A stretch of 53,090 nucleotides of DNA, taken from NCBI GenBank assembly GCA_026706845.1, contig JAPOXY010000141.1, positions 1-53,090 of the forward strand, given 5' to 3'. Below are positions 4,055-50,061 of this stretch, one piece after another (the stretch's first letter is position 1; every line of letters begins with the position of its first letter). A program made the position numbers and the translations under genes. Under the pieces are notes generated by a model. The model worked only from the letters and a program-made list of their open reading frames with translations, made no database searches and was not told where the DNA came from. Origin of the DNA: Gemmatimonadota bacterium. GTDB lineage: Bacteria; Latescibacterota; UBA2968.

Positions 4055-5815
4055 TCACTTGTCGAAGAAGGGATGTAGGGACACGGGTACTCTGGGAATC
4101 TCGCCGCTCGGCGGCTTGATCGTGATGTCCTCGAACAGGACCATGCGAGGAGTGACGATACTTACGAGAACTGACTCACCTCGTCCGAAGGGGGAGGAGT
4201 TGTCCTGCGAGCGAAAGGGAACGGTGTTGACCGCGTGCGTCTTAGACACCTTCACGATGTCTTTGAAGGTATAAAGGCCGATGCCCGCAAATTCCGCGTT
4301 GCGCACGAGTTCCTCGCGGCCGTCGAGATAGACTTTATAGACGAAGATCGCGTTTTGCAACTTGTTCTCGTCGTCAGAGGAACGAGAGGAATAGTAGATA
4401 ACCGGAGATTCAGAAACATTGTACGACGGGTTGGCGATGTGGGTGACGATGTAGCCGTACTGTTTTTTTTGCCTTTTGATTAGTTTGAAAAATTCCTCGC
4501 GGATCTGCTTTTCGCTCAGGCCCTTCTCCGCCTCGACCAGGATATTGCTGGGGGCGACGCCCGGACCTCGGCGACTGCCCGTGCTCTGGTCAATGCCGCG
4601 CACAGGTGTGCGCGTCGTCAGCAAGGTCTCTAATACGCCTTCCCGCACTAGGTGGACTGGACGCGCTGGAACGCCTTCGTCGTCAACCCTGTAGCCGCCG
4701 AACAAGGGTTGCTTTTTATAGGCGTCCATGAGCGGTTCAGCGCGCACGCTGAGGAATTCGGGTAGGACGCGTACACCAATTTTGTCCAGAAAAGGGTTTT
4801 CTTTTTTTTGGGGATAGAAGCGCTCGTAGTCCGGATTGTCGGACAGTGTCCGGCGCGTCGATAGCATGTAGGGCACAAATCCCTGATTGAACAGCTCTGT
4901 GGCTGCCTGGCTCGTGAATATCACGGGTCCGGTAAAGCGCTCGACCAGCGGTGCCTGGCGTAGCTGCTTCAGACGCTCGCCCATGGTATTGATCTTCGCG
5001 GCCAACTCGTCGTCACCGGGAAGATTTTCCGGTGAACGGGCGTACACGGCGACGAAGTCCTGTAGCGGCATTCCGTCGGGAGCCTGGGTGGCGGCGACCG
5101 CGGTGAGAGATAGTGAAGAACTCGTGCGAGAGAAGGAAGATCCTTCGCTGTTGAAGTAGTAGAACGAGGTGTTGGACCCGTTGAAACGTACCCTTGAAGT
5201 GTAGATGTCGGGCATCTCGCGGAACAGGCCCGAGAGCTGGCGCGCTCGCTGTTCCAGCGCGTCGAGATCCAGGACAATAGGTGCCATTTTGTGTACTTTG
5301 GTGGCGGACTTTTCCCTGCTGAAATCGGGAATTTCTTCGGTGCGGGTTTTGTTTTGCAAGGTCGCGCGTTTCCTGGCCAGATCTTCGAGCGCCTTCTTGT
5401 AGGCACCGTCGGTGGCCAGCCATATCTTGCGTCGCAACTCGTCGTAGTTGTCCTCAAGGGGCAATTGCACGCTGCCCCCGTACATGTACACTACGCCCGT
5501 ACGACCGAAAGAGAACGAGCGGAAGTTGGTGTTGTCGAGGGCGTAGTCTCCGACCCGCACTTCGACACTGAGTTCGCGCGAGTGCCTCTCACTGCTGTTG
5601 AGCAGACTGCCGAAGGTCGCTGAACTGCTTTTGGATTTCACTTCGCGCACGCGGTAGGAAATGAAGTAGGGTCGCTCCAGGTCTTCGAGCTGAAGTTGTT
5701 GCATTGAGCGCGCCAATTCGTCGCGCAGGGCGCGTTGCAGAATGTCGTCTTCGGCGTGGACCGCGGAAAACGCCAGGAAGATAGCTATAACGTGGATGAA
5801 GGTTCTTTTGTACAT
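4055..5815 (-). CDS. Exported TldD/PmbA-family protein without the metal site (TldE-like)
   Basis: A 586-residue protein with a signal peptide (MYKRTFIHVIAIFLAFSAV, cut after HA). It aligns along its length with the neighbouring TldD-like protein: VGDYALDNTNF, FTGPVIFTSQAATELF, SNILVEAEKGLS and VYLDGREELVRNAEF all have counterparts. Where the neighbour carries HEIFGH, this protein has FNQGFVP, so it lacks the zinc ligands. The Cys-containing segment near the C-terminus is also absent. In the known cytosolic TldD/TldE protease one subunit holds the metal and the other does not, so a heterodimer with the neighbour is the natural reading, here in the periplasm. It starts 27 nt after the neighbour's stop, consistent with co-translation of partners. 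Confidence 0.82.
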   Translation of the reverse strand: MYKRTFIHVIAIFLAFSAVHAEDDILQRALRDELARSMQQLQLEDLERPYFISYRVREVKSKSSSATFGSLLNSSERHSRELSVEVRVGDYALDNTNFRSFSFGRTGVVYMYGGSVQLPLEDNYDELRRKIWLATDGAYKKALEDLARKRATLQNKTRTEEIPDFSREKSATKVHKMAPIVLDLDALEQRARQLSGLFREMPDIYTSRVRFNGSNTSFYYFNSEGSSFSRTSSSLSLTAVAATQAPDGMPLQDFVAVYARSPENLPGDDELAAKINTMGERLKQLRQAPLVERFTGPVIFTSQAATELFNQGFVPYMLSTRRTLSDNPDYERFYPQKKENPFLDKIGVRVLPEFLSVRAEPLMDAYKKQPLFGGYRVDDEGVPARPVHLVREGVLETLLTTRTPVRGIDQSTGSRRGPGVAPSNILVEAEKGLSEKQIREEFFKLIKRQKKQYGYIVTHIANPSYNVSESPVIYYSSRSSDDENKLQNAIFVYKVYLDGREELVRNAEFAGIGLYTFKDIVKVSKTHAVNTVPFRSQDNSSPFGRGESVLVSIVTPRMVLFEDITIKPPSGEIPRVPVSLHPFFDK

Positions 5816-5842
5816 GGGATGGCTCCTGCTGGATGGAAAAGC

Positions 5843-7540
5843 TCAAGGGAGGTCCGATTCTTCAGCGGACTCGGAGAAAGGTGATTCGAGGATAGGCCGG
5901 CGCTCCTGGGATTTCTCTTTCTTCTGCACTTCAATCTGCGAGATGAATATGCCGGGAGAGACCGCGGCCACGGGTACGCCTCCCGACTCGGCGCCGCATA
6001 TGCCGTTGAATACGCCGGTCTGATCGTCAGCAGCGGCGATCTGGCTGAAGGCAGTGAGCGGCGTGCCGATCAGGTCAACTCCGCGCACGAGTTCCTCGCG
6101 TCCGTCGGTATAAATGCGGTACACCATGATGGGAAGCACGTTGAAGGCGTTGGGGAAGGTGCGGCCCGTGATGGTGAAGCCCCCCTGGATATCCTCGAAA
6201 TAGAGGCCGAATGCCTTGTCTTCCCTGCGACACTGTTCGATGAGCATTTCCTTGAGCTGGTCCCGGGTCAGCGGCTCCGAGGTCTCGACAATGAGGTTGG
6301 ACTGGCGCGCTACGGGGGCATAGCCCGGCTGCTTGCGTCCGTGGCCGTTGGAGTTGGGGAAGTTCTCGATCGGGGAACGCGACATGAGGAAGCGGCGGAA
6401 AATCCCGTTTTCGACGACGACGACCCGCCGCGCCTTGACGCCCTGATTGTCGTATGCGTAGGCTCCTACCAGATCCTTGCCAGCACTGCTCGTCTGAGTG
6501 GGATCGAAGTAAACTGAGAAGGTCTCGGGCAGGACTTTTTCTCCTATTTTCTTTTTGAAGGTCTGGCCCTCGTCCTCGCGTTTCTGGCGGTGGCCCTCGA
6601 TGCGGTGTCCGAAAATTTCGTGGAAGAGAACGCCGCTGGCGCGGCCCGAGAGAATCGCTGGACCGGTGTAGGGGGCTACTATAGGGGCGTCGCGCAGGGC
6701 GTGCAAGTCAGCAATTATGCGCTCTACCAGAGCGAGGACCTCATCGTCGCTGGGCAAACCCTCCGGGGTAAAGGCCGAGAAGGATTCGTAGCGCGGCAAT
6801 TCCATGCCGTCGTCGGCCTTGGTAAAGGCGTAGATGAACAGTCGGTAGAGTACTTGTGAGGTCTGGATCTTGCTGCCCTCGCTGTTGACGTATTGGCGGG
6901 TCGAGATATTAGCCGAGAGGCTGGCTTCGGCTTCGTAGATGTCTCCGTATTGGGCGAAGGGGGCCGTGTATTTCTTGAGCCTGGCTTCCCATTCGTCGCG
7001 GGGGATGTCGAAGGAGGCGATGTCTTCCACATAGTGCTCGACCGGCTCTTTGGAAAAATCGTCCGACTGGTCTTCCTCTTCTACCTTGACCCGGACATTG
7101 GTCTTGACCGTGGTTAGCTTTTCAATGGCGCGTTTGTACTTTTTGTCGGTGTGGTACCAGAGCACGCTGCGGATGGCGTCCGGATCATCCTCAATGGGAA
7201 TTTCGATTCTCGAATAGCGATCGGACCAATTGCGGGGGCCACCGCGGACCTGATGCGTATTGTCGAAGGCGTAGTCCCCCACGCGCAGATCGATATCGAG
7301 CCGCCGCCGCTGCGATTCGCGGCTGTAGGTGAGCACGCCGAAGGAGGCTTCGACGCTGATTCCCTGCGTCTCGGTGATTTCATAGCTGAGGTAGTAGGGT
7401 GGGACCGGCTGCTTCTGGAGCGAACTGAAGGAGCGGGTCAGTTCTTCCCGCATGGCCTGTAGTAATGAGGTCTCGGCCCGAACGCTGGTAGCAGTAAACA
7501 CGATGCAGACGAGGCATAAAAGCCTGGAAAATGATCTCAT
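5843..7540 (-). CDS. Exported TldD-family metalloprotease, metal site intact
   Basis: A 565-residue protein with a signal peptide (basic MRSFSRLL, hydrophobic core, cut near VRA). The metal motif HEIFGH is at residues 307-312, with a further His at 317 (RIEGH), as in TldD. Downstream AYDNQGVKARRVVVVENG and the glycine-rich, Cys-containing NGICGAESGG match the family's C-terminal half. Known TldD/TldE complexes are cytosolic zinc proteases acting on unfolded or ribosomally made peptides (microcin B17, CcdA). An exported version implies peptide processing in the periplasm. The start has GAAAGG about 7 nt upstream. It is first in a run with the metal-less paralogue and PhyH. Confidence 0.87.
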   Translation of the reverse strand: MRSFSRLLCLVCIVFTATSVRAETSLLQAMREELTRSFSSLQKQPVPPYYLSYEITETQGISVEASFGVLTYSRESQRRRLDIDLRVGDYAFDNTHQVRGGPRNWSDRYSRIEIPIEDDPDAIRSVLWYHTDKKYKRAIEKLTTVKTNVRVKVEEEDQSDDFSKEPVEHYVEDIASFDIPRDEWEARLKKYTAPFAQYGDIYEAEASLSANISTRQYVNSEGSKIQTSQVLYRLFIYAFTKADDGMELPRYESFSAFTPEGLPSDDEVLALVERIIADLHALRDAPIVAPYTGPAILSGRASGVLFHEIFGHRIEGHRQKREDEGQTFKKKIGEKVLPETFSVYFDPTQTSSAGKDLVGAYAYDNQGVKARRVVVVENGIFRRFLMSRSPIENFPNSNGHGRKQPGYAPVARQSNLIVETSEPLTRDQLKEMLIEQCRREDKAFGLYFEDIQGGFTITGRTFPNAFNVLPIMVYRIYTDGREELVRGVDLIGTPLTAFSQIAAADDQTGVFNGICGAESGGVPVAAVSPGIFISQIEVQKKEKSQERRPILESPFSESAEESDLP

Positions 7541-7636: not shown

Positions 7637-8611
7637 TTAGATCAGTTCTGAGAGGATTATGCGGCGGTTTTCCTCAATTGATCGTTCGGCTGCGAGACCG
7701 ATCAGCGCGGCGTTGATGGCTGTGCGCGCGTCGGTTTGCCAGTTGCCATTGTGGATATCACTGAGGAATTGGGTTTGGATTGTGATGTCCAATGATTCGG
7801 CTGCGGGCAGGTCGTGTTCGCCTGATTTTGTCGAGAGGTGCCAGCCATCGCCTCTGTTGATGAGCGTCCCGTCTGTCATGACGATGTGGCGATATTCTTC
7901 GGCATCGGAAATTTCGATGCCACCGGTCCAGTTCCACTGACCAATACCGCCGTTTTCAAAACCGACTGCGACGGAATTTGCAAAGCTATCGTAGGTGCTG
8001 TCATCGCGCAGATTTTCATAGTGGGCAGCGGCTTCAACCCAGGTGGCGGGACCAAAACAATCGACGAGTGGATAGATGTTATAGACAAAAAAGAGGGCTG
8101 GTGGACCCGATATGGAGATATTAAAGAGGATTTCGGGACGTTGACCACGGCCCGGGGTGAGGCGGGTGAATAGTGCGGTTATGAGATTTCCCGTTTGGGC
8201 TGTTTGTCGTTTGAGTGTCCGGTGAGAGGGCGAGAGTACTTCGTTGTGGCCAACTCTGAGCACAAGGGACGACTGGTCGATTCTGGAAAGCAATTGTTGC
8301 GCTTCATCGATATTGCGCGCCGCGGGATATTCGGTAAAAACGTGTTTGTTTGCATCGAGTGCGGCAAGGGCGATTTCACTGTGGGTGTCGTTGTAGGTGC
8401 ATATTGCGATGGCGTCGATGTCGTCGCGTTTGAGTATTTCCCGATAGGTCGGTAAGTAATCTATACCGTGCTTGTTGGCGAGTGCTGGCCCGGTTTCTAT
8501 GTTTCGCGCAGCAATGGCAATGAGTTCAAAGCCATCTGTTCGGGAAAAGTGCTGGGCATGGCGACTCGCCATACCGCCTGAGCCGATGATGCCAATGCGA
8601 ATGTCGTTCAT
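7637..8611 (-). CDS. Gfo/Idh/MocA-type oxidoreductase with EYP in place of EKP
   Basis: About 324 residues from the ATG at 8611-8609, chosen because GGAGG lies five bases upstream and GIIGSGGMASRH (the NAD(P) Rossmann loop) follows at once; the frame runs ten codons further upstream without support. The usual catalytic motif EKP reads EYP (HVFTEYPAARN). Tyr at this place is also found in biliverdin reductase, a member of the same fold family, so the protein may not be a sugar dehydrogenase. The C-terminal domain has the expected beta-sheet pattern. It starts 13 nt after the methyltransferase stop and is probably co-transcribed with it. Its first codons and ribosome site are duplicated at the start of that methyltransferase. 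Confidence 0.85.
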   Translation of the reverse strand: MNDIRIGIIGSGGMASRHAQHFSRTDGFELIAIAARNIETGPALANKHGIDYLPTYREILKRDDIDAIAICTYNDTHSEIALAALDANKHVFTEYPAARNIDEAQQLLSRIDQSSLVLRVGHNEVLSPSHRTLKRQTAQTGNLITALFTRLTPGRGQRPEILFNISISGPPALFFVYNIYPLVDCFGPATWVEAAAHYENLRDDSTYDSFANSVAVGFENGGIGQWNWTGGIEISDAEEYRHIVMTDGTLINRGDGWHLSTKSGEHDLPAAESLDITIQTQFLSDIHNGNWQTDARTAINAALIGLAAERSIEENRRIILSELI

Positions 8612-8620
8612 TTTTCCTCC
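8563..8620. repeat. Copy A of a 50-bp duplication (oxidoreductase start)
   Basis: Covers the ribosome site and about 16 codons of the Gfo/Idh gene. It matches 9461-9509 almost base for base apart from a 9-nt in-frame insertion (three codons) and single substitutions. This copy fits the Rossmann loop its protein needs, so it is the likely donor. Confidence 0.85.
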
Positions 8621-8624
8621 AAAC

Positions 8625-9500
8625 TTAGATCTTGACGCCAATTACGCCGACCATTGATGGCGATGAAATATTGGCTTGTGGATCGCGGGCATTTGTTTGC
8701 CATTCTTCCCAATGCGCCGCGCAATCTTCTTCGCGCAATGCGCCGCGTGCCACGAGTTCGGGCAAATACATGCGCAAGAAATCTTCTATCCAGCACCAGA
8801 TGCGGTTGCCCGGGCGGGCAATGCCGCCGATGGGAATGACTTCCACGACCTCCAGGCCACAACGTTCCATGAGGTGCGGTAGCTTATCGCCGATTTTGAG
8901 TCCATCGCCGAAGCTCCTGTGTACCGCCTGTAGCACGCGTCGCAAGTGGGGGTATTGGATCTGGGCGACAAATGCCCCATAAGCGCAGTAATCCATAACG
9001 AGCAGGCGTCCGCCCCTTTTAAGCATGCGGGCTACCTGCTCAATCACCTTTTGTGGCTCTTTTATGAAGCAGAGTAGCCAACGAGCGAACACAGCGTCTA
9101 TAGAAGCGGCTGGCAGGTCAAGGGTGCGGACATCCGCTACGACGACCTCGATTTGCGTCATACTGGCTGATGCAGCGCGGTGTCGGAGAAAATTCGCGAA
9201 TTTTTTTGATCCATCCACGGCCAGAACGCGCCCACCTGCGCCCACGCGCTCGCCCAGTTCTAAACTCGTAAAGCCCGGGCCACAACCGAGGTCGAGAATC
9301 GTTTGTCCAGCGCGAAAGGCGGCGCGATCCCACAAGTCTGTGGTTTCGGCCTGCCATGCATTGTGTTGCGCTTGCAGGCGGTGCAGTTCCTCGTCATTTG
9401 TTCCCAACAGATAGTCGCGTTCGGCAGCGGTGCTCACGGCGTGTTTTCCTCTTTTATTATGACTCGCCATACCGCCCGAGCCGATGATGCCATCGTTCAT
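8625..9500 (-). CDS. Class I SAM-dependent methyltransferase with a captured N-terminus
   Basis: 291 residues. Motif I is ILDLGCGPGFTSLELG, motif II VLAVDGSKK, then VVADVRTLDLPAASIDAVFA and a post-II segment MLKRGGRLLVMDYC, all typical of class I methyltransferases. The acceptor is unknown. The first residues, MNDGIIGSGGMASH, are not methyltransferase sequence: they copy the start of the downstream Gfo/Idh protein, minus three residues, and the DNA including the GGAG ribosome site is duplicated too. Methyltransferase-like sequence begins around AAERDYLLGTNDEELHRL. A strong terminator ends only about 13 bp upstream, leaving no room for its own promoter, so expression may depend on read-through from the kor operon. 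Confidence 0.85.
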   Translation of the reverse strand: MNDGIIGSGGMASHNKRGKHAVSTAAERDYLLGTNDEELHRLQAQHNAWQAETTDLWDRAAFRAGQTILDLGCGPGFTSLELGERVGAGGRVLAVDGSKKFANFLRHRAASASMTQIEVVVADVRTLDLPAASIDAVFARWLLCFIKEPQKVIEQVARMLKRGGRLLVMDYCAYGAFVAQIQYPHLRRVLQAVHRSFGDGLKIGDKLPHLMERCGLEVVEVIPIGGIARPGNRIWCWIEDFLRMYLPELVARGALREEDCAAHWEEWQTNARDPQANISSPSMVGVIGVKI

Positions 9501-9509
9501 TTTTTCTCC
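9461..9509. repeat. Copy B of the 50-bp duplication (methyltransferase start)
   Basis: Matches 8563-8620, lacking the 9-nt segment that encodes three residues near the start. It supplies the start codon, ribosome site and first 14 or so codons of the methyltransferase gene. The two copies are 0.9 kb apart in direct orientation. Confidence 0.85.
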
Positions 9510-9512
9510 AAT

Positions 9513-9548
9513 AAAAAAGAGTCCGCGAGGTGCTTGCGGACTCTTTTT
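9513..9548 (-). terminator. Terminator of the kor operon
   Basis: AAAAAGAGTCCGC and GCGGACTCTTTTT form a perfect 13-bp stem around a short loop, with a T-run on the minus strand. It lies just after the korB stop and just before the methyltransferase start. Confidence 0.9.
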
Positions 9549-9569: not shown

Positions 9570-11111
9570 TTAGTTGGGCGATATGTTGTCTGAGAAGAGA
9601 CCGCCGGTGAACTTGAGCATGACTTTAAAGGATGCCAGACCCACGGGACATCCATCGGGATCTACAATGGGTATGTGGCGAAAGCCGTGCAGAGACATCA
9701 GGTGCAGGAGGTGACCGATGGGATCAGATGTTTTCAATGCGGTGGGGTCTTTGGTCATCAGGCTATCGACCGTTATTTTTGTCAGGTCTATATCGCGCCC
9801 GGCAACTTTTTCAAAGAGATCGCCCTGTGCGAATATGCCGCGCAACAAGCCCTGTTTGTCAACGACCAGCAAACATCCCAGATTTTTACTGCGCATGGTC
9901 TCGACGGCATCGGCTACCGAGGTCTCAGCAGATACGCATTCGGGTGCTGGCAGGTCGAGGGATGAGATGGGGTCGTAGAGCAGTTGCTGAAGCGCGGTGC
10001 GCGGTGCCATGGGGTCTTCTTGTTCGATATCGGGAATGATATTCGATGTGGGCAATTCTTCGTGGACTTCTTGCACGGTTTCGGCGTCGGGACCTTCGGG
10101 AACAATCCAGGTGTCTGTCGCGTGATACAGGGCATTGAGATCGCCTGCGCCGCGCTCTTCAACTGCCTGGCGGCCCTGTGCGATGATTTGCTCTTCGTAA
10201 ATTGGACGTTCTACACAGCGAAATACGCCGAATGGCACCGGATATTCCGGATGTGTGAGACGGCTGAGCAAATACGCATGGGCTGGATTATCCAGGGTTT
10301 CGTCGTGTGTGAGCAAGTCGCTTTCCGATACGCCATTGCCCAGGGTTACGACTTCGGGTGCGAGTCCATTGACGCGGATGCCTTTGTCGCGGTCTTTGCC
10401 AAAAATGATGGGTTGGCCGTGTTCGAGGATCACGGTTTGATCGTCTTTGACATCTGCCTCGGTGGCAAAAAACCAGGCACCGTCGTTGTAGATGTTGCAG
10501 TTCTGGTAAATTTCGACAAAGGATGTGCCGCGGTGTTCGGTGGCGCGTTTGAGAATCTCGGCCATGTGCTTGGTGTTGCGGTCAACACTGCGGGCGACAA
10601 AGGTGGCTTCGGCTGCCAGGGCAACGGAGATGGCATTGAAGTCCTGTTCCACAGAGCCCATGGGCGACGAATAGGTGCGCGTGCCCGGCGGCGATGTAGG
10701 TGAGTATTGTCCTTTGGTGAGGCCGTAGATCGCATTGTTGAAGAGTATGATGTTGAGATCGACGTTGCGACGCAGCACATGCAACAGGTGATTGCCACCT
10801 ATGGATAGGCTGTCGCCATCGCCGGTGATTACCCACACATGCAGGTCGGGATTGGCCACTTTGAGGCCAGTCGCCACGGTTGCCGCACGACCGTGAATGG
10901 TGTGCAGACCGTACGTGTTCATGTAATAGGGGAAGCGGCTGGAGCAACCGATGCCCGATATAAAGACCATATCTTCCCGCGCAATGCCCATTTCGGGCAA
11001 CACGCGCTGCATCTGTGCGAGGATGGCGTAATCACCACAACCGGGGCACCAGCGCACTTCCTGGTCGGATACGAAGTCTTTTCGCGTCAGTGTTTCAATA
11101 GCGTCTGCCAT
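9570..11111 (-). CDS. korB: 2-oxoacid:ferredoxin oxidoreductase beta subunit with C-terminal CBS pair
   Basis: 513 residues. The first 340 or so form the thiamine-diphosphate subunit: WCPGCGDYAIL near the N-terminus, ISGIGCSSRFPYY, and the ThDP motif GDGDSLSIGGNH ending in NNAIYGLTKGQYSPTS. Iron-sulfur ligands would be the CPGC cysteines plus GIGC and QNC. Unlike usual KorB proteins of about 350 residues, it carries two CBS repeats after an acidic linker (about 385-510): VSAETSVADAVETMRSKNLG and LMTKDPTALKTSDPIGHLLH. CBS pairs bind adenine nucleotides, so activity may be tuned to AMP/ATP. It starts 12 nt after korA. The substrate is most likely 2-oxoglutarate, judged from the KorA/KorB layout, but pyruvate or another 2-oxoacid cannot be ruled out. 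Confidence 0.9.
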   Translation of the reverse strand: MADAIETLTRKDFVSDQEVRWCPGCGDYAILAQMQRVLPEMGIAREDMVFISGIGCSSRFPYYMNTYGLHTIHGRAATVATGLKVANPDLHVWVITGDGDSLSIGGNHLLHVLRRNVDLNIILFNNAIYGLTKGQYSPTSPPGTRTYSSPMGSVEQDFNAISVALAAEATFVARSVDRNTKHMAEILKRATEHRGTSFVEIYQNCNIYNDGAWFFATEADVKDDQTVILEHGQPIIFGKDRDKGIRVNGLAPEVVTLGNGVSESDLLTHDETLDNPAHAYLLSRLTHPEYPVPFGVFRCVERPIYEEQIIAQGRQAVEERGAGDLNALYHATDTWIVPEGPDAETVQEVHEELPTSNIIPDIEQEDPMAPRTALQQLLYDPISSLDLPAPECVSAETSVADAVETMRSKNLGCLLVVDKQGLLRGIFAQGDLFEKVAGRDIDLTKITVDSLMTKDPTALKTSDPIGHLLHLMSLHGFRHIPIVDPDGCPVGLASFKVMLKFTGGLFSDNISPN

Positions 11112-46307: not shown

Positions 46308-46365
46308 TCATCGCGGCATGTCCCCTGCCTAAAGCATGCAGAGGCAAACTTGAGCCGCGATCCAG
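46308..46365. repeat. CGTCAT/TCCAG palindromic repeat, copy 4 (with insert)
   Basis: ATCGCGGC (near 46311) and GCCGCGAT (46354-46361) are separated by a longer loop that contains CCCCTGCCTAAAGCATGCAG, also found in related form beside copy 5. It lies just upstream of the first ABC-2 permease gene and its ribosome site. Confidence 0.8.
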
Positions 46366-46392
46366 TCTACCGCGATTTCAAAGGAGTATGAC

Positions 46393-47169
46393 ATGAAACA
46401 ATTTTTTGCCCTATATGTGAAGGAACTCAAAGCGAATAGAGCACTTTTTCTGTTTTTGCTCCTTTTGATTGTGGGGATGAATGTCTATGGGCTTATCCTG
46501 GTAGAAAATTTTACGTTTTTAGAAATAAAAAAAGAGACAGGGGGACATATTCAAATTCTCAATATTCCCTGGTCAGGGCTGGCTGCTCTTATCTTCGTTT
46601 TTAGTCTGCCCTTTTTGCTGGCGCATGCCTTCAATACCGAATGGAAATCAGAAACGCATTATCAGATGTTTGCACTAACGGTACCTCAGTACACGGTCAT
46701 TCTGTCAAAAGTCGCTGCGGTTGCGAGCAAGGGCATTGTAGGCGGCGTAATTGTGACTATCGGTCTGTCTTTATGGGCAGCGCGTAAGGCCGCTTTGCCG
46801 AACGTAAAGATATTGTCAGTAGGAGGAACAGAAGTTACGGCATTTTTTGATTTTGCTCTTGTGGTTGGTTTGGTACTTATGACGTATATGATTTTTATTT
46901 TCGGTGTTGTGACCGGGATGGAGGGAGTGAAGTTCACAGTTAAGCGGTATCGGGGATTGGTTGCGGTTGCTTTTTTTGTTTTATCCACATTTTTATACGG
47001 TCAGCTTTTCCAACAAGGTGAGAGGGCATTCAAATTTTTCGGACAGATTTCAATGTCTCCTCCTGCTGAATTTGCAATTGATGTGGGACCTTTTATCTAT
47101 ACGATTCTGATGGGCGTCATCTTTATGATTATTGGGCTTGTTGTGTATGAAAAACGCGCGGAAATATGA
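46393..47169 (+). CDS. ABC-2-type permease subunit, paralogue 1 of 3
   Basis: 258 residues with about six hydrophobic helices (near 17-36, 58-80, 107-130, 150-175, 190-210, 235-253). It starts FFALYVKELKANRALFLFLL, the same as the two permeases downstream, and shares SLPFLLAHAFNTEWKSETHY, VTGMEGVKF.VKRYRG and a last helix ending MIIGLVVYEKRAEI. This is the ABC-2 or YtrC-like topology. AAAGGAG precedes the ATG. It stands before the GntR-ATPase pair, so it is probably one membrane subunit of that transporter. Confidence 0.82.
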   Translation: MKQFFALYVKELKANRALFLFLLLLIVGMNVYGLILVENFTFLEIKKETGGHIQILNIPWSGLAALIFVFSLPFLLAHAFNTEWKSETHYQMFALTVPQYTVILSKVAAVASKGIVGGVIVTIGLSLWAARKAALPNVKILSVGGTEVTAFFDFALVVGLVLMTYMIFIFGVVTGMEGVKFTVKRYRGLVAVAFFVLSTFLYGQLFQQGERAFKFFGQISMSPPAEFAIDVGPFIYTILMGVIFMIIGLVVYEKRAEI

Positions 47170-47210
47170 GGTTCGATCTATGACTGTAAAAAAAGTCAGG
47201 AGGCATTTGT

Positions 47211-47582
47211 ATGCCACCTTATGAGTTTGATCCAAATGCGCCTATTTATTTGCAAATTATCGGCGAGATCAAAAAGCGTTCGGTGCGCGGGGTTTATTCG
47301 CCGGGGTCAAAGTTGCCTTCGGTGCGGGATATGGCGAAGGAAATGGGCGTGAATCCCAATACAATGGCGCGGGCTTATGCAGAGCTTGAGCGAGAGGGGT
47401 TTGTTTTTACGCGGCGTGGGCAGGGTTCGTTTGTGACAGAGGATGGGAAGAAGATTGAGGCTGAGAAGCGGGCGTTGGCAAAGAGTGCTGTTGCGCGGTT
47501 TGTTGCCGAGGTTGGAGAATTGGATCTTTCCAGCGAGCAAATTGCCGATTTGTTGCGCGATATAGAGGAGGATTTGACATGA
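47211..47582 (+). CDS. GntR-family regulator, YtrA type
   Basis: 123 residues. A winged-helix domain (about 8-75: PIYLQIIGEIKKRSVRGVYS, PSVRDMAKEMGVNPNTMARAYAELE, GQGSFV) is followed by only a short helical tail (about 80-123), which marks the YtrA subfamily that controls neighbouring ABC transporter genes. AGGAGG precedes the start. The stop overlaps the ATPase start by four bases (ATGA), so the two are translationally coupled. It probably represses this cluster. Confidence 0.92.
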   Translation: MPPYEFDPNAPIYLQIIGEIKKRSVRGVYSPGSKLPSVRDMAKEMGVNPNTMARAYAELEREGFVFTRRGQGSFVTEDGKKIEAEKRALAKSAVARFVAEVGELDLSSEQIADLLRDIEEDLT

Positions 47583-48271
47583 TGATCGATGTTCGAGATG
47601 TTTGGAAGCGATATCCGGGCGCGTGGGCGCTACGCGGTGTTTCTTTTCAGGTTGAGCGCGGGCGTGTGCAAGGTGTGTTGGGCGAGAACGGGAGTGGGAA
47701 GAGTACTTTGTTCCGCATTCTAGCTGGTTTGACCCGTCCGTCGCGGGGATCCGCCGAGGTGATGGGGCAAGCGGTGAGTGTGAAGACCCGGCAGCATGTG
47801 GCTTATTTGGCGGAGATCAATCCGTTTTACGATTGGATGAAGGTGATGGAGCAGGTGGAGTTTCTGGCGCGTTTTTATCCAGGGTGGGATATGGATAAGT
47901 CGCGCGAGTTGCTGAGTTTTATGGGGCTGGATGAGGATAAGAAGGTGGGCGCGCTTTCGCGGGGTCAACAGGGACGGCTCAAGGTGGTGTGCGCGTTTTC
48001 CTGGCCGAGTGATCTGGTTTTGATGGATGAGCCGCTATCCGGTATTGATCCCCCGTCGCGCAAGCGCATTGTCGAGGCTTTGTTTAGCGAGTTTCGATTT
48101 GGGGAGCAGACGATTTTGATTTCGACGCATCTGGTCCATGAAGTGGGCGAGTTTATCGAAGATGTGATGTTTATGAAAGAGGGCGAGATCGCACTTTCCG
48201 GCAATGCAGATGCGCTACGTGAGGAACGGGGAGAGTCGCTTTCCGAGATGTTTGAGATGGTGGCGATGTGA
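47579..48271 (+). CDS. ABC transporter ATPase (ABC-2 / YtrB-like)
   Basis: 230 residues. Walker A is GENGSGKST, the Q-loop region YLAEINPFYDWMKV, the signature ALSRGQQGRLK (a variant of LSGGQ), Walker B DLVLMDEPLSGIDP, and the switch His is in ISTHLVHEVGE. It would power the ABC-2 permeases on both sides. Its start overlaps the GntR stop; a second ATG directly follows the first and either could be used. Confidence 0.93.
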   Translation: MMIDVRDVWKRYPGAWALRGVSFQVERGRVQGVLGENGSGKSTLFRILAGLTRPSRGSAEVMGQAVSVKTRQHVAYLAEINPFYDWMKVMEQVEFLARFYPGWDMDKSRELLSFMGLDEDKKVGALSRGQQGRLKVVCAFSWPSDLVLMDEPLSGIDPPSRKRIVEALFSEFRFGEQTILISTHLVHEVGEFIEDVMFMKEGEIALSGNADALREERGESLSEMFEMVAM

Positions 48272-48401
48272 GAGGGCGGTGTCTCTATGTCCGTCCATCA
48301 GCGTAGGGGCGGTGCCCCCGTGCCCGCCCGGTAATGTAGGGTTTGGTACTATTCTGTTGTAGGGGACGGTCCCCTACTTAGAACATGCAGGATCAGGCTC
48401 C
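48272..48401. repeat. GC-rich palindromes after the ATPase gene
   Basis: GGGGC-GGT-GCCCC (48306-48318) lies 35 bp after the ATPase stop, then GTAGGGGAC-G-GTCCCCTAC (48359-48377), a perfect 9-bp inverted repeat. Next to it, CCCCTACTTAGAACATGCAG resembles the loop of repeat copy 4. No T-run follows, so they are extragenic repeats rather than terminators. Confidence 0.65.
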
Positions 48402-48434
48402 CGTCATCGCGGCAGGTTTTTAGCCGCGATCCAG
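48402..48434. repeat. CGTCAT/TCCAG palindromic repeat, copy 5
   Basis: CGTC, ATCGCGGC (48406-48413), short T-rich loop, GCCGCGAT (48423-48430), CCAG. It stands immediately before the ribosome site of the second ABC-2 permease, just as copy 4 does for the first. Confidence 0.85.
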
Positions 48435-48453
48435 TGCTTTCAAGGAGTATGCC

Positions 48454-49200
48454 ATGAAACCATTTTTTGCATTATACGTGAAGGAACTCAAAGCGAATAA
48501 AACCCTTTTTCTATTTTTGTTGCTTTTGATCGCGGGGTTGAATGCGTATGGGCTTATCCGAATAGAAGATGGTTTGGATTTCGAAGAGGCATTCAAACAG
48601 ATATTTATTTGGACGACGATAGCAATTTTTCTCGTTCTTCTCAGTCTGCCCTTTTTGTTGGCGCATGCCTTCAATTCTGAGTGGAAATCGGAAACGCATT
48701 ATCAGATGTTTGCGTTGCCAGTATCACAATACACGGTGATTCTGGCAAAGGTCGCTGTGGTTGCGAGTATTGGTTTTGTGGGTGGTGGGATTGTTATAGG
48801 AAGCCTGTATTTACTGATTTTGGCCAATCTGCCAGGTCAAATTCTATCATTTGATGGGATGGAGGTTACCTTATTTTGGGATTTTGTTTTTATGTGTGGT
48901 TTAGGGCTTGTAACATATATGGTTTTCATCCTCGGCCTTGTGACCGGGATGGAAGGCATAAAGTTTTCGGTCAAGCGGTATCGGGGATTGACTGCGGTCG
49001 CTTTTTTTGCACTTGCCGTGTTTTTATACATCCGATTTTTTCAGCAAGGAAAGATGGCGTTAGATTTTTTAGGGCAAATCTCAATCCTTCCTACGCCTTC
49101 TGGACAAATAGCGTGGGCGCCGTTTGTCTATACCATTCTTACGGGTATCATCTTTATGATCATTGGGCTTGTGATGTATGAAAGACGCGCGGAAATATAA
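48454..49200 (+). CDS. ABC-2-type permease subunit, paralogue 2 of 3
   Basis: 248 residues, six predicted helices. MKPFFALYVKELKANKTLFL starts it, followed by SLPFLLAHAFNSEWKSETHY, YTVILAKVAVVASIGFVGGG and VTGMEGIKFSVKRYRGLTAV; it ends MIIGLVMYERRAEI. AAGGAG precedes the ATG. The repeat and ribosome site in front resemble those before paralogue 1, so the duplication included upstream DNA. Confidence 0.82.
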   Translation: MKPFFALYVKELKANKTLFLFLLLLIAGLNAYGLIRIEDGLDFEEAFKQIFIWTTIAIFLVLLSLPFLLAHAFNSEWKSETHYQMFALPVSQYTVILAKVAVVASIGFVGGGIVIGSLYLLILANLPGQILSFDGMEVTLFWDFVFMCGLGLVTYMVFILGLVTGMEGIKFSVKRYRGLTAVAFFALAVFLYIRFFQQGKMALDFLGQISILPTPSGQIAWAPFVYTILTGIIFMIIGLVMYERRAEI

Positions 49201-49250
49201 ATTCCGAATTGTGTAATGGTGGTCGAATACTCTTTACTTGGGATCGTGAT

Positions 49251-50018
49251 ATGAAACCATTTTTTGCATTATACGTGAAGGAACTCAAAGCGCATAAAAT
49301 CCTTTTTTTATTTGTGCTGCTTTTAATTGCGGGGATGAATGCTTATGGGATTATGCAGGTAGAATATGTTTGGCATTTTAAGGATGTGATCGAGTCCGGC
49401 GATAATCTTCCTTTTATTCTTTGGCCCAGTTTCAGCTATTTCTGGCCAATGCTGGCTGTTTTTACTCTTGTTCTGAGTTTGCCCTTTTTGCTGGCGCATG
49501 CCTTCAATTCCGAGTGGCGATCCGAAACGCATTATCAGATGTTTGCGATACGAGATTCACAATATATCGTGAATTTGACAAAGGTCGCTGCGGTCGCGAG
49601 TGTAGGCTTTGTGGGCGGTGGAATGGTAGTTTGCAGTCTGTATTTCTGGATGGTGCGTAAGGCCGAGTTTGTAGATGGCGTAATAGAGTTGATGTCATTT
49701 CCCCATTTTACTCTGGTGACGGGCTTGATTCTTGTGACGTATATGGTTTTCATCCTCGGTCTTGTGACCGGGATGGAGGGAGTGAAGTTTTCGGTTAAAC
49801 GGTATCGGGGATTGACTGCGATTGCTTTTTGTCTGGTATCCGTATTTTTATATGGCTGGCTTTTCCTGCAAGGGGAGAGGGCGTTTGAATTCTTAGGACA
49901 AATTGCGATGCCTCCTTTTGGAGTTGTGAATGTGGCTCCTTGTGTCTATACCATTTTTACGGGTATCATCTTCATGATCATTGGGCTTGTGATGTATGAA
50001 AAACGTGCGGAAATATAG
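49251..50018 (+). CDS. ABC-2-type permease subunit, paralogue 3 of 3
   Basis: 255 residues from the ATG at 49251; a frame extension to 49209 exists, but MKPFFALYVKELKAHKILFL aligns with the starts of the other two. Six predicted helices, shared SLPFLLAHAFNSEWRSETHY and VTGMEGVKFSVKRYRGLTAI, end MIIGLVMYEKRAEI. It is closer to paralogue 2 than to 1 and follows it by 50 bp without the hairpin repeat. The ribosome site is weak (TTGGGATCG). Confidence 0.82.
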   Translation: MKPFFALYVKELKAHKILFLFVLLLIAGMNAYGIMQVEYVWHFKDVIESGDNLPFILWPSFSYFWPMLAVFTLVLSLPFLLAHAFNSEWRSETHYQMFAIRDSQYIVNLTKVAAVASVGFVGGGMVVCSLYFWMVRKAEFVDGVIELMSFPHFTLVTGLILVTYMVFILGLVTGMEGVKFSVKRYRGLTAIAFCLVSVFLYGWLFLQGERAFEFLGQIAMPPFGVVNVAPCVYTIFTGIIFMIIGLVMYEKRAEI

Positions 50019-50061
50019 ATTCCAAGTTGTGCAACTTCCCGTCTTAATGATCGGTGTTACA

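Follow-up and report, generated by a model that had tools for sequence, protein, structure and literature searches.

The repeated gene start and its setting

The window, as we call the whole 53,090-nucleotide stretch of DNA analysed here, comes from a genome of 5.46 Mb (G000). It contains a 2-oxoacid oxidoreductase β-subunit-like gene (POR), a terminator-like hairpin, a methyltransferase gene (MT) and a gene for a Gfo/Idh/MocA oxidoreductase (Gfo), the last of which was found in all 11 genomes of the genus (Table 1). MT stands alone between two copies of the Gfo start; no transposase or integrase gene lies beside it in the window, and neither mobile-element genes nor element ends framed by short duplications were found, as a transposon insertion with target-site duplication would have them.

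Table 1. Parts of the locus, in window coordinates
Feature	Position	Strand	Characteristics
POR with CBS domains	9570..11111	-	Pfam TPP_enzyme_C and CBS; conserved left neighbour of the site; adjoins Gfo in MT-less relatives
Terminator-like hairpin after POR	9514..9548	.	Inverted repeat, 94% complementary; same hairpin across the genus
Relic Gfo/Idh head	9461..9511	-	Shine-Dalgarno GGAG 9506-9509, ATG 9498-9500, codons to GAGTC, 9-nt deletion; in frame with MT
Junction segment with MT's own Shine-Dalgarno GAGG (9448-9451)	9438..9460	-	Comparison with G007, G002 and f4-family homologues
Methyltransferase proper from native GTG, 270 aa	8625..9437	-	Distant-homologue homology begins at the GTG
MT reading frame as called, including head	8625-9500	-	Pfam Methyltransf_11
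Nine Gfo bases absent from the relic copy	8595..8603	-	Same deletion in G006, G010 and G001
Intact Gfo/Idh/MocA oxidoreductase, 324 aa	7637..8611	-	Pfam GFO_IDH_MocA; Shine-Dalgarno 8616-8620

An earlier note on this DNA had described the ribosome site and first codons of Gfo as recurring, minus nine bases, at the start of MT, and this is borne out by the alignment: 49 of 51 aligned bases are identical, with a single 9-nt gap where 8595-8603 have no counterpart in the MT copy. Expressed as direct repeats, the match comprises 8563-8594 with 9461-9492 (31/32) and 8604-8622 with 9493-9511 (18/19), and the relic spans about 13 residues in the window genome (MNDGIIGSGGMAS). When the region of the MT start was searched by BLAST against the whole genome, the Gfo start was the sole convincing second site (E = 6e-11), a third row being the terminator hairpin matching its own opposite strand. 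Likewise, a pattern search allowing up to three mismatches returned exactly two sites, the MT start and the Gfo start, while the reversed control pattern returned none at the same tolerance. A dispersed repeat or an attachment site was rejected as an explanation, as the terminator and head are without other convincing copies by genome BLAST and window search.

A native start behind a decaying head

MT is a predicted enzyme sharing the Methyltransf_11 domain with class I SAM-dependent methyltransferases (residues 69-168, E 6e-21, 75.3 bits against a gathering threshold of 21.2). Its best solved relatives by sequence are plant phosphoethanolamine N-methyltransferases (E 2e-18), and no model attained its cut-off in an NCBIfam scan. 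In contrast to this family, the N-terminal residues of the annotated reading frame are foreign, their source being the NAD-binding glycine-rich loop with which the Gfo/Idh/MocA oxidoreductases begin at the N-terminus; unlike in these enzymes, only the first 13-14 residues are kept in the MT head, and the remaining fold is absent. Homology to MT is confined to the region from about 9437 onward, where the native GTG lies, in G007 and G002 (92-93% identity), in five genomes of another family (78-80%) and in three distant ones (38-51%). As these homologues share homology only from there, the leader MNDGIIGSGGMASHNKRGKHA is foreign to the MT family, and at 38-80% identity the first homologous residue falls at or past the native start, with the head absent. 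The expectation that methyltransferase homologues should lack the copied N-terminus thus holds for the distant ones; the same N-terminus, which would have spoken against a copied start, occurs only in close sister species that inherited the junction. The native start is itself well marked: a GAGG ribosome site stands 10 nt ahead of the GTG at 9437 and recurs in G007 and G002, the f4-family genomes have GGAGTAAGCACCC-GTG at the equivalent place, and the start codon is conserved in distant homologues. In a structure model of mean pLDDT 87 over the whole protein, residues 1-27 score below 50 and the rest is confident, so that the head is modelled as disordered.

In an N-terminal capture, the acquired start should be in use and kept open, and the original start should be lost. 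Neither is seen across the six carriers of MT in the genus. The head is interrupted by a TAG at codon 8 in G010, frameshifted in G001, where a TGA that overlaps the GTG closes its reading frame, and deleted in G007 and G002; being broken or missing in four of six carriers, it is dispensable there. The native Shine-Dalgarno sequence and GTG are retained, save that TTG replaces GTG in G006. The proposal that a gene is seen here gaining a new start therefore finds no support. Only in G000 and G006 is the head open and in frame (predicted N-terminal peptide MNDGIIGSGGMASHNK), with a Shine-Dalgarno pairing energy (-6.4 kcal/mol) close to that of the native site (-5.8 kcal/mol); because of this frame an ORF caller merges relic and MT into one apparent fusion protein. 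Judged by its sequence, MT is most likely translated from the native GTG; use of the relic as an MT start in these two genomes is possible, and at most the relic would serve as a short leader or dispensable N-terminal extension. More speculatively, MT in G000 and G006 may have gained, through use of the relic start, a 21-residue, mostly oxidoreductase leader while its own start decays, as from GTG to TTG in G006. We consider such a start-swap intermediate conceivable, if doubtful; were it real, a start swap would have been caught midway, with sister species holding unused and broken versions.

Empty sites, a tail relic and the source of the methyltransferase

Which of the two Gfo starts is the original? 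POR, terminator and Gfo stand directly in line in G003, G004, G005, G009 and the more distant G008, which are devoid of MT, and equally in G014 and G012, which belong to other genera of the same family; all seven thus present the empty site by which an insertion or replacement scar is recognized. In the MT-less relatives the Gfo ribosome site comes straight after the POR terminator. The stretch of the relic from the terminator through the Shine-Dalgarno sequence to the ATG (GACTCTTTTTTATTGGAGAAAAAATGAA) matches the native Gfo start in G009 at every base, and the intact Gfo behind MT lacks a terminator ahead of its ribosome site. As the relic adjoins the terminator just as in the empty site, the head is the start of the ancestral Gfo, still at its original position. 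Comparison of these sites indicates that MT came to Gfo and that the Gfo start did not move to MT. The earlier note was hence right in tracing the 5' end of the MT reading frame to Gfo/Idh, but not in having the start copied onto MT, since the head is an in-situ Gfo start joined to its terminator: the feature it described is real, its history having been read in the wrong direction.

A different remnant is found in G007 and G002. There the head is absent, and the sequence that follows MT matches the final 16 nt of a Gfo gene, stop codon included, without a mismatch (CTCAGAACTTCTGTAA). Because a gapped local alignment of this Gfo tail was only borderline, its score being about equal to the best of 2000 shuffles, a test of the longest exact run was added; in 1000 shuffles the longest shared run was 12-13 nt, as against the 16 nt seen here. 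Beyond the tail lie a kinase-like gene, 5'-truncated in G002, and a promoter-like segment, in the order in which they follow Gfo in G004. At a distance of about 6.5 kb, some 22 codons of PhyH form a fragment joined to a second terminator, after which come an intact Gfo and PhyH. Remnants of Gfo are thus a head in G000, G006, G010 and G001 and a 16-nt tail in G007 and G002, never both together.

The origin of MT itself seems to lie outside the genus. MT is 78-80% identical to its f4/g13 homologues, where it resides in another neighbourhood, whereas POR identity across the same genomes is only 57-68%, and G014 of the same family holds merely a 38% homologue; this points to lateral acquisition. 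Simple vertical descent was rejected, as the rpoB, POR, Gfo and MT trees disagree. The presence of MT does not track the rpoB tree, so losses by recombination between duplicated terminators, or locus exchange, would be needed, and the MT tree groups G007 with G002, whereas rpoB and POR place G007 with the MT-less G009. The position of G010 also differs between rpoB and POR: its rpoB (L105) falls with G004 and G005, while its POR-MT-Gfo locus (L057) resembles those of G000, G001 and G006, a conflict due either to locus exchange or to a mixed bin.

A probable scar of gene replacement and its alternatives

Our comparison of these loci suggests a scenario in which the head is probably the scar of a replacement, Gfo having been tandemly duplicated and MT having replaced the body of the first copy, with head and tail relics surviving in different lineages. 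The ancestral order would have been POR, terminator, Gfo/Idh, (kinase), promoter and PhyH. A tandem duplication of the unit from the terminator through Gfo, kinase and promoter to PhyH codons 1-22 would have provided a spare Gfo copy, and a laterally acquired MT with its own ribosome site and GTG would then have replaced the body of the first, so that the Shine-Dalgarno sequence and about 14-20 Gfo codons remained on the left and the final 16 nt on the right. Everything between the MT stop and the ribosome site of the second Gfo may then have been lost in the window lineage, which would place MT between the relic start and an intact Gfo; G007 and G002 would instead have lost the head and kept the tail. 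It counts against this scenario that the tail is only 16 nt long, that head and tail never occur in one genome, and that extra losses or recombination are required, as does the open, in-frame head of G000 and G006 with its Shine-Dalgarno sequence as strong as the native one and the TTG of G006.

The same layout could have arisen if only one Gfo had existed and MT had been inserted ahead of it, after the terminator, duplicating some 60-70 nt of the Gfo start on the way, be it by a repair- or target-site-like duplication or by a single crossover of a circle carrying the Gfo start. Such a course, which we regard as unlikely, needs fewer steps for G000, G006, G010 and G001, where the repeats flank MT directly, but it demands a long duplication at insertion, finds no transposase or integrase beside MT in the window, and by itself does not account for what follows MT in G007 and G002 (Gfo tail, kinase and promoter) together with their second terminator-Gfo unit; the layout of these two genomes would have to stem from a later Gfo deletion and regain. 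It is because G007 and G002 keep the tail, kinase and promoter after MT that replacement of a duplicate Gfo copy is preferred over simple local duplication. That the Gfo start was locally duplicated onto an MT already upstream, giving it a new functional start, is highly improbable: it would fit the open, in-frame head with a good Shine-Dalgarno sequence in G000 and G006 and the native TTG of G006, yet the left copy lies against the terminator just where the empty sites have it, which is its original location; the native start is retained, and of the other four carriers none has an intact head. As for an assembly or binning artefact, the assemblies of the genus are metagenome-derived and an N-gap lies near the G010 locus; however, the identical junction recurs in the separate assemblies of G006, G010 and G001, each with its own point mutations, so that four assemblies agree and this explanation can practically be dismissed.

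Replacement of a duplicate Gfo copy would place the locus among the known insertion or replacement scars, its decay series in sister genomes being unusually complete. Like such scars at variable bacterial loci, it has an apparently foreign gene at a conserved site and empty sites in relatives, with a fragment of the displaced gene on one flank or, in other genomes, on the other; unlike them, it has in two genomes a 5' relic that shares the reading frame of the incoming gene. For the general process, no matching bacterial case appeared among the titles and abstracts listed in literature searches. The locus would offer a clean, polarised example of an apparent fusion protein, in which a lateral gene replaces a spare copy and a chance in-frame relic start is absorbed into the predicted reading frame. 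With open, nonsense-mutated, frameshifted and deleted heads, the six related genomes form a small natural series that shows what becomes of accidental N-terminal extensions; they also urge caution in start-codon annotation.

Several further rearrangements were observed in the region. A distinct insert, about 2 kb long and with a 394-aa proline-rich repeat ORF, lies between the POR stop and the terminator in G006 (L055 6445-8391), making the POR-Gfo gap a repeated insertion site. In G007, the TPR/ATPase island that separates MT from Gfo harbours an IS1380 family transposase (L053 6568-7926); in G002 the island consists of a single long ORF. At 4055-7540 of the window, between Gfo and PhyH, are two paralogous genes, 32% identical, which may encode TldD/PmbA-type proteins and were not found at that place in the nine relatives with the region examined, and at 46350-50034 there are three direct repeats of about 800 bp with 71-72% identity. 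Finally, G001 (L056) and G003 (L058) share a second insertion point in the Gfo-PhyH interval: just past the promoter-like segment upstream of PhyH, each has an insert of about 0.7 kb.
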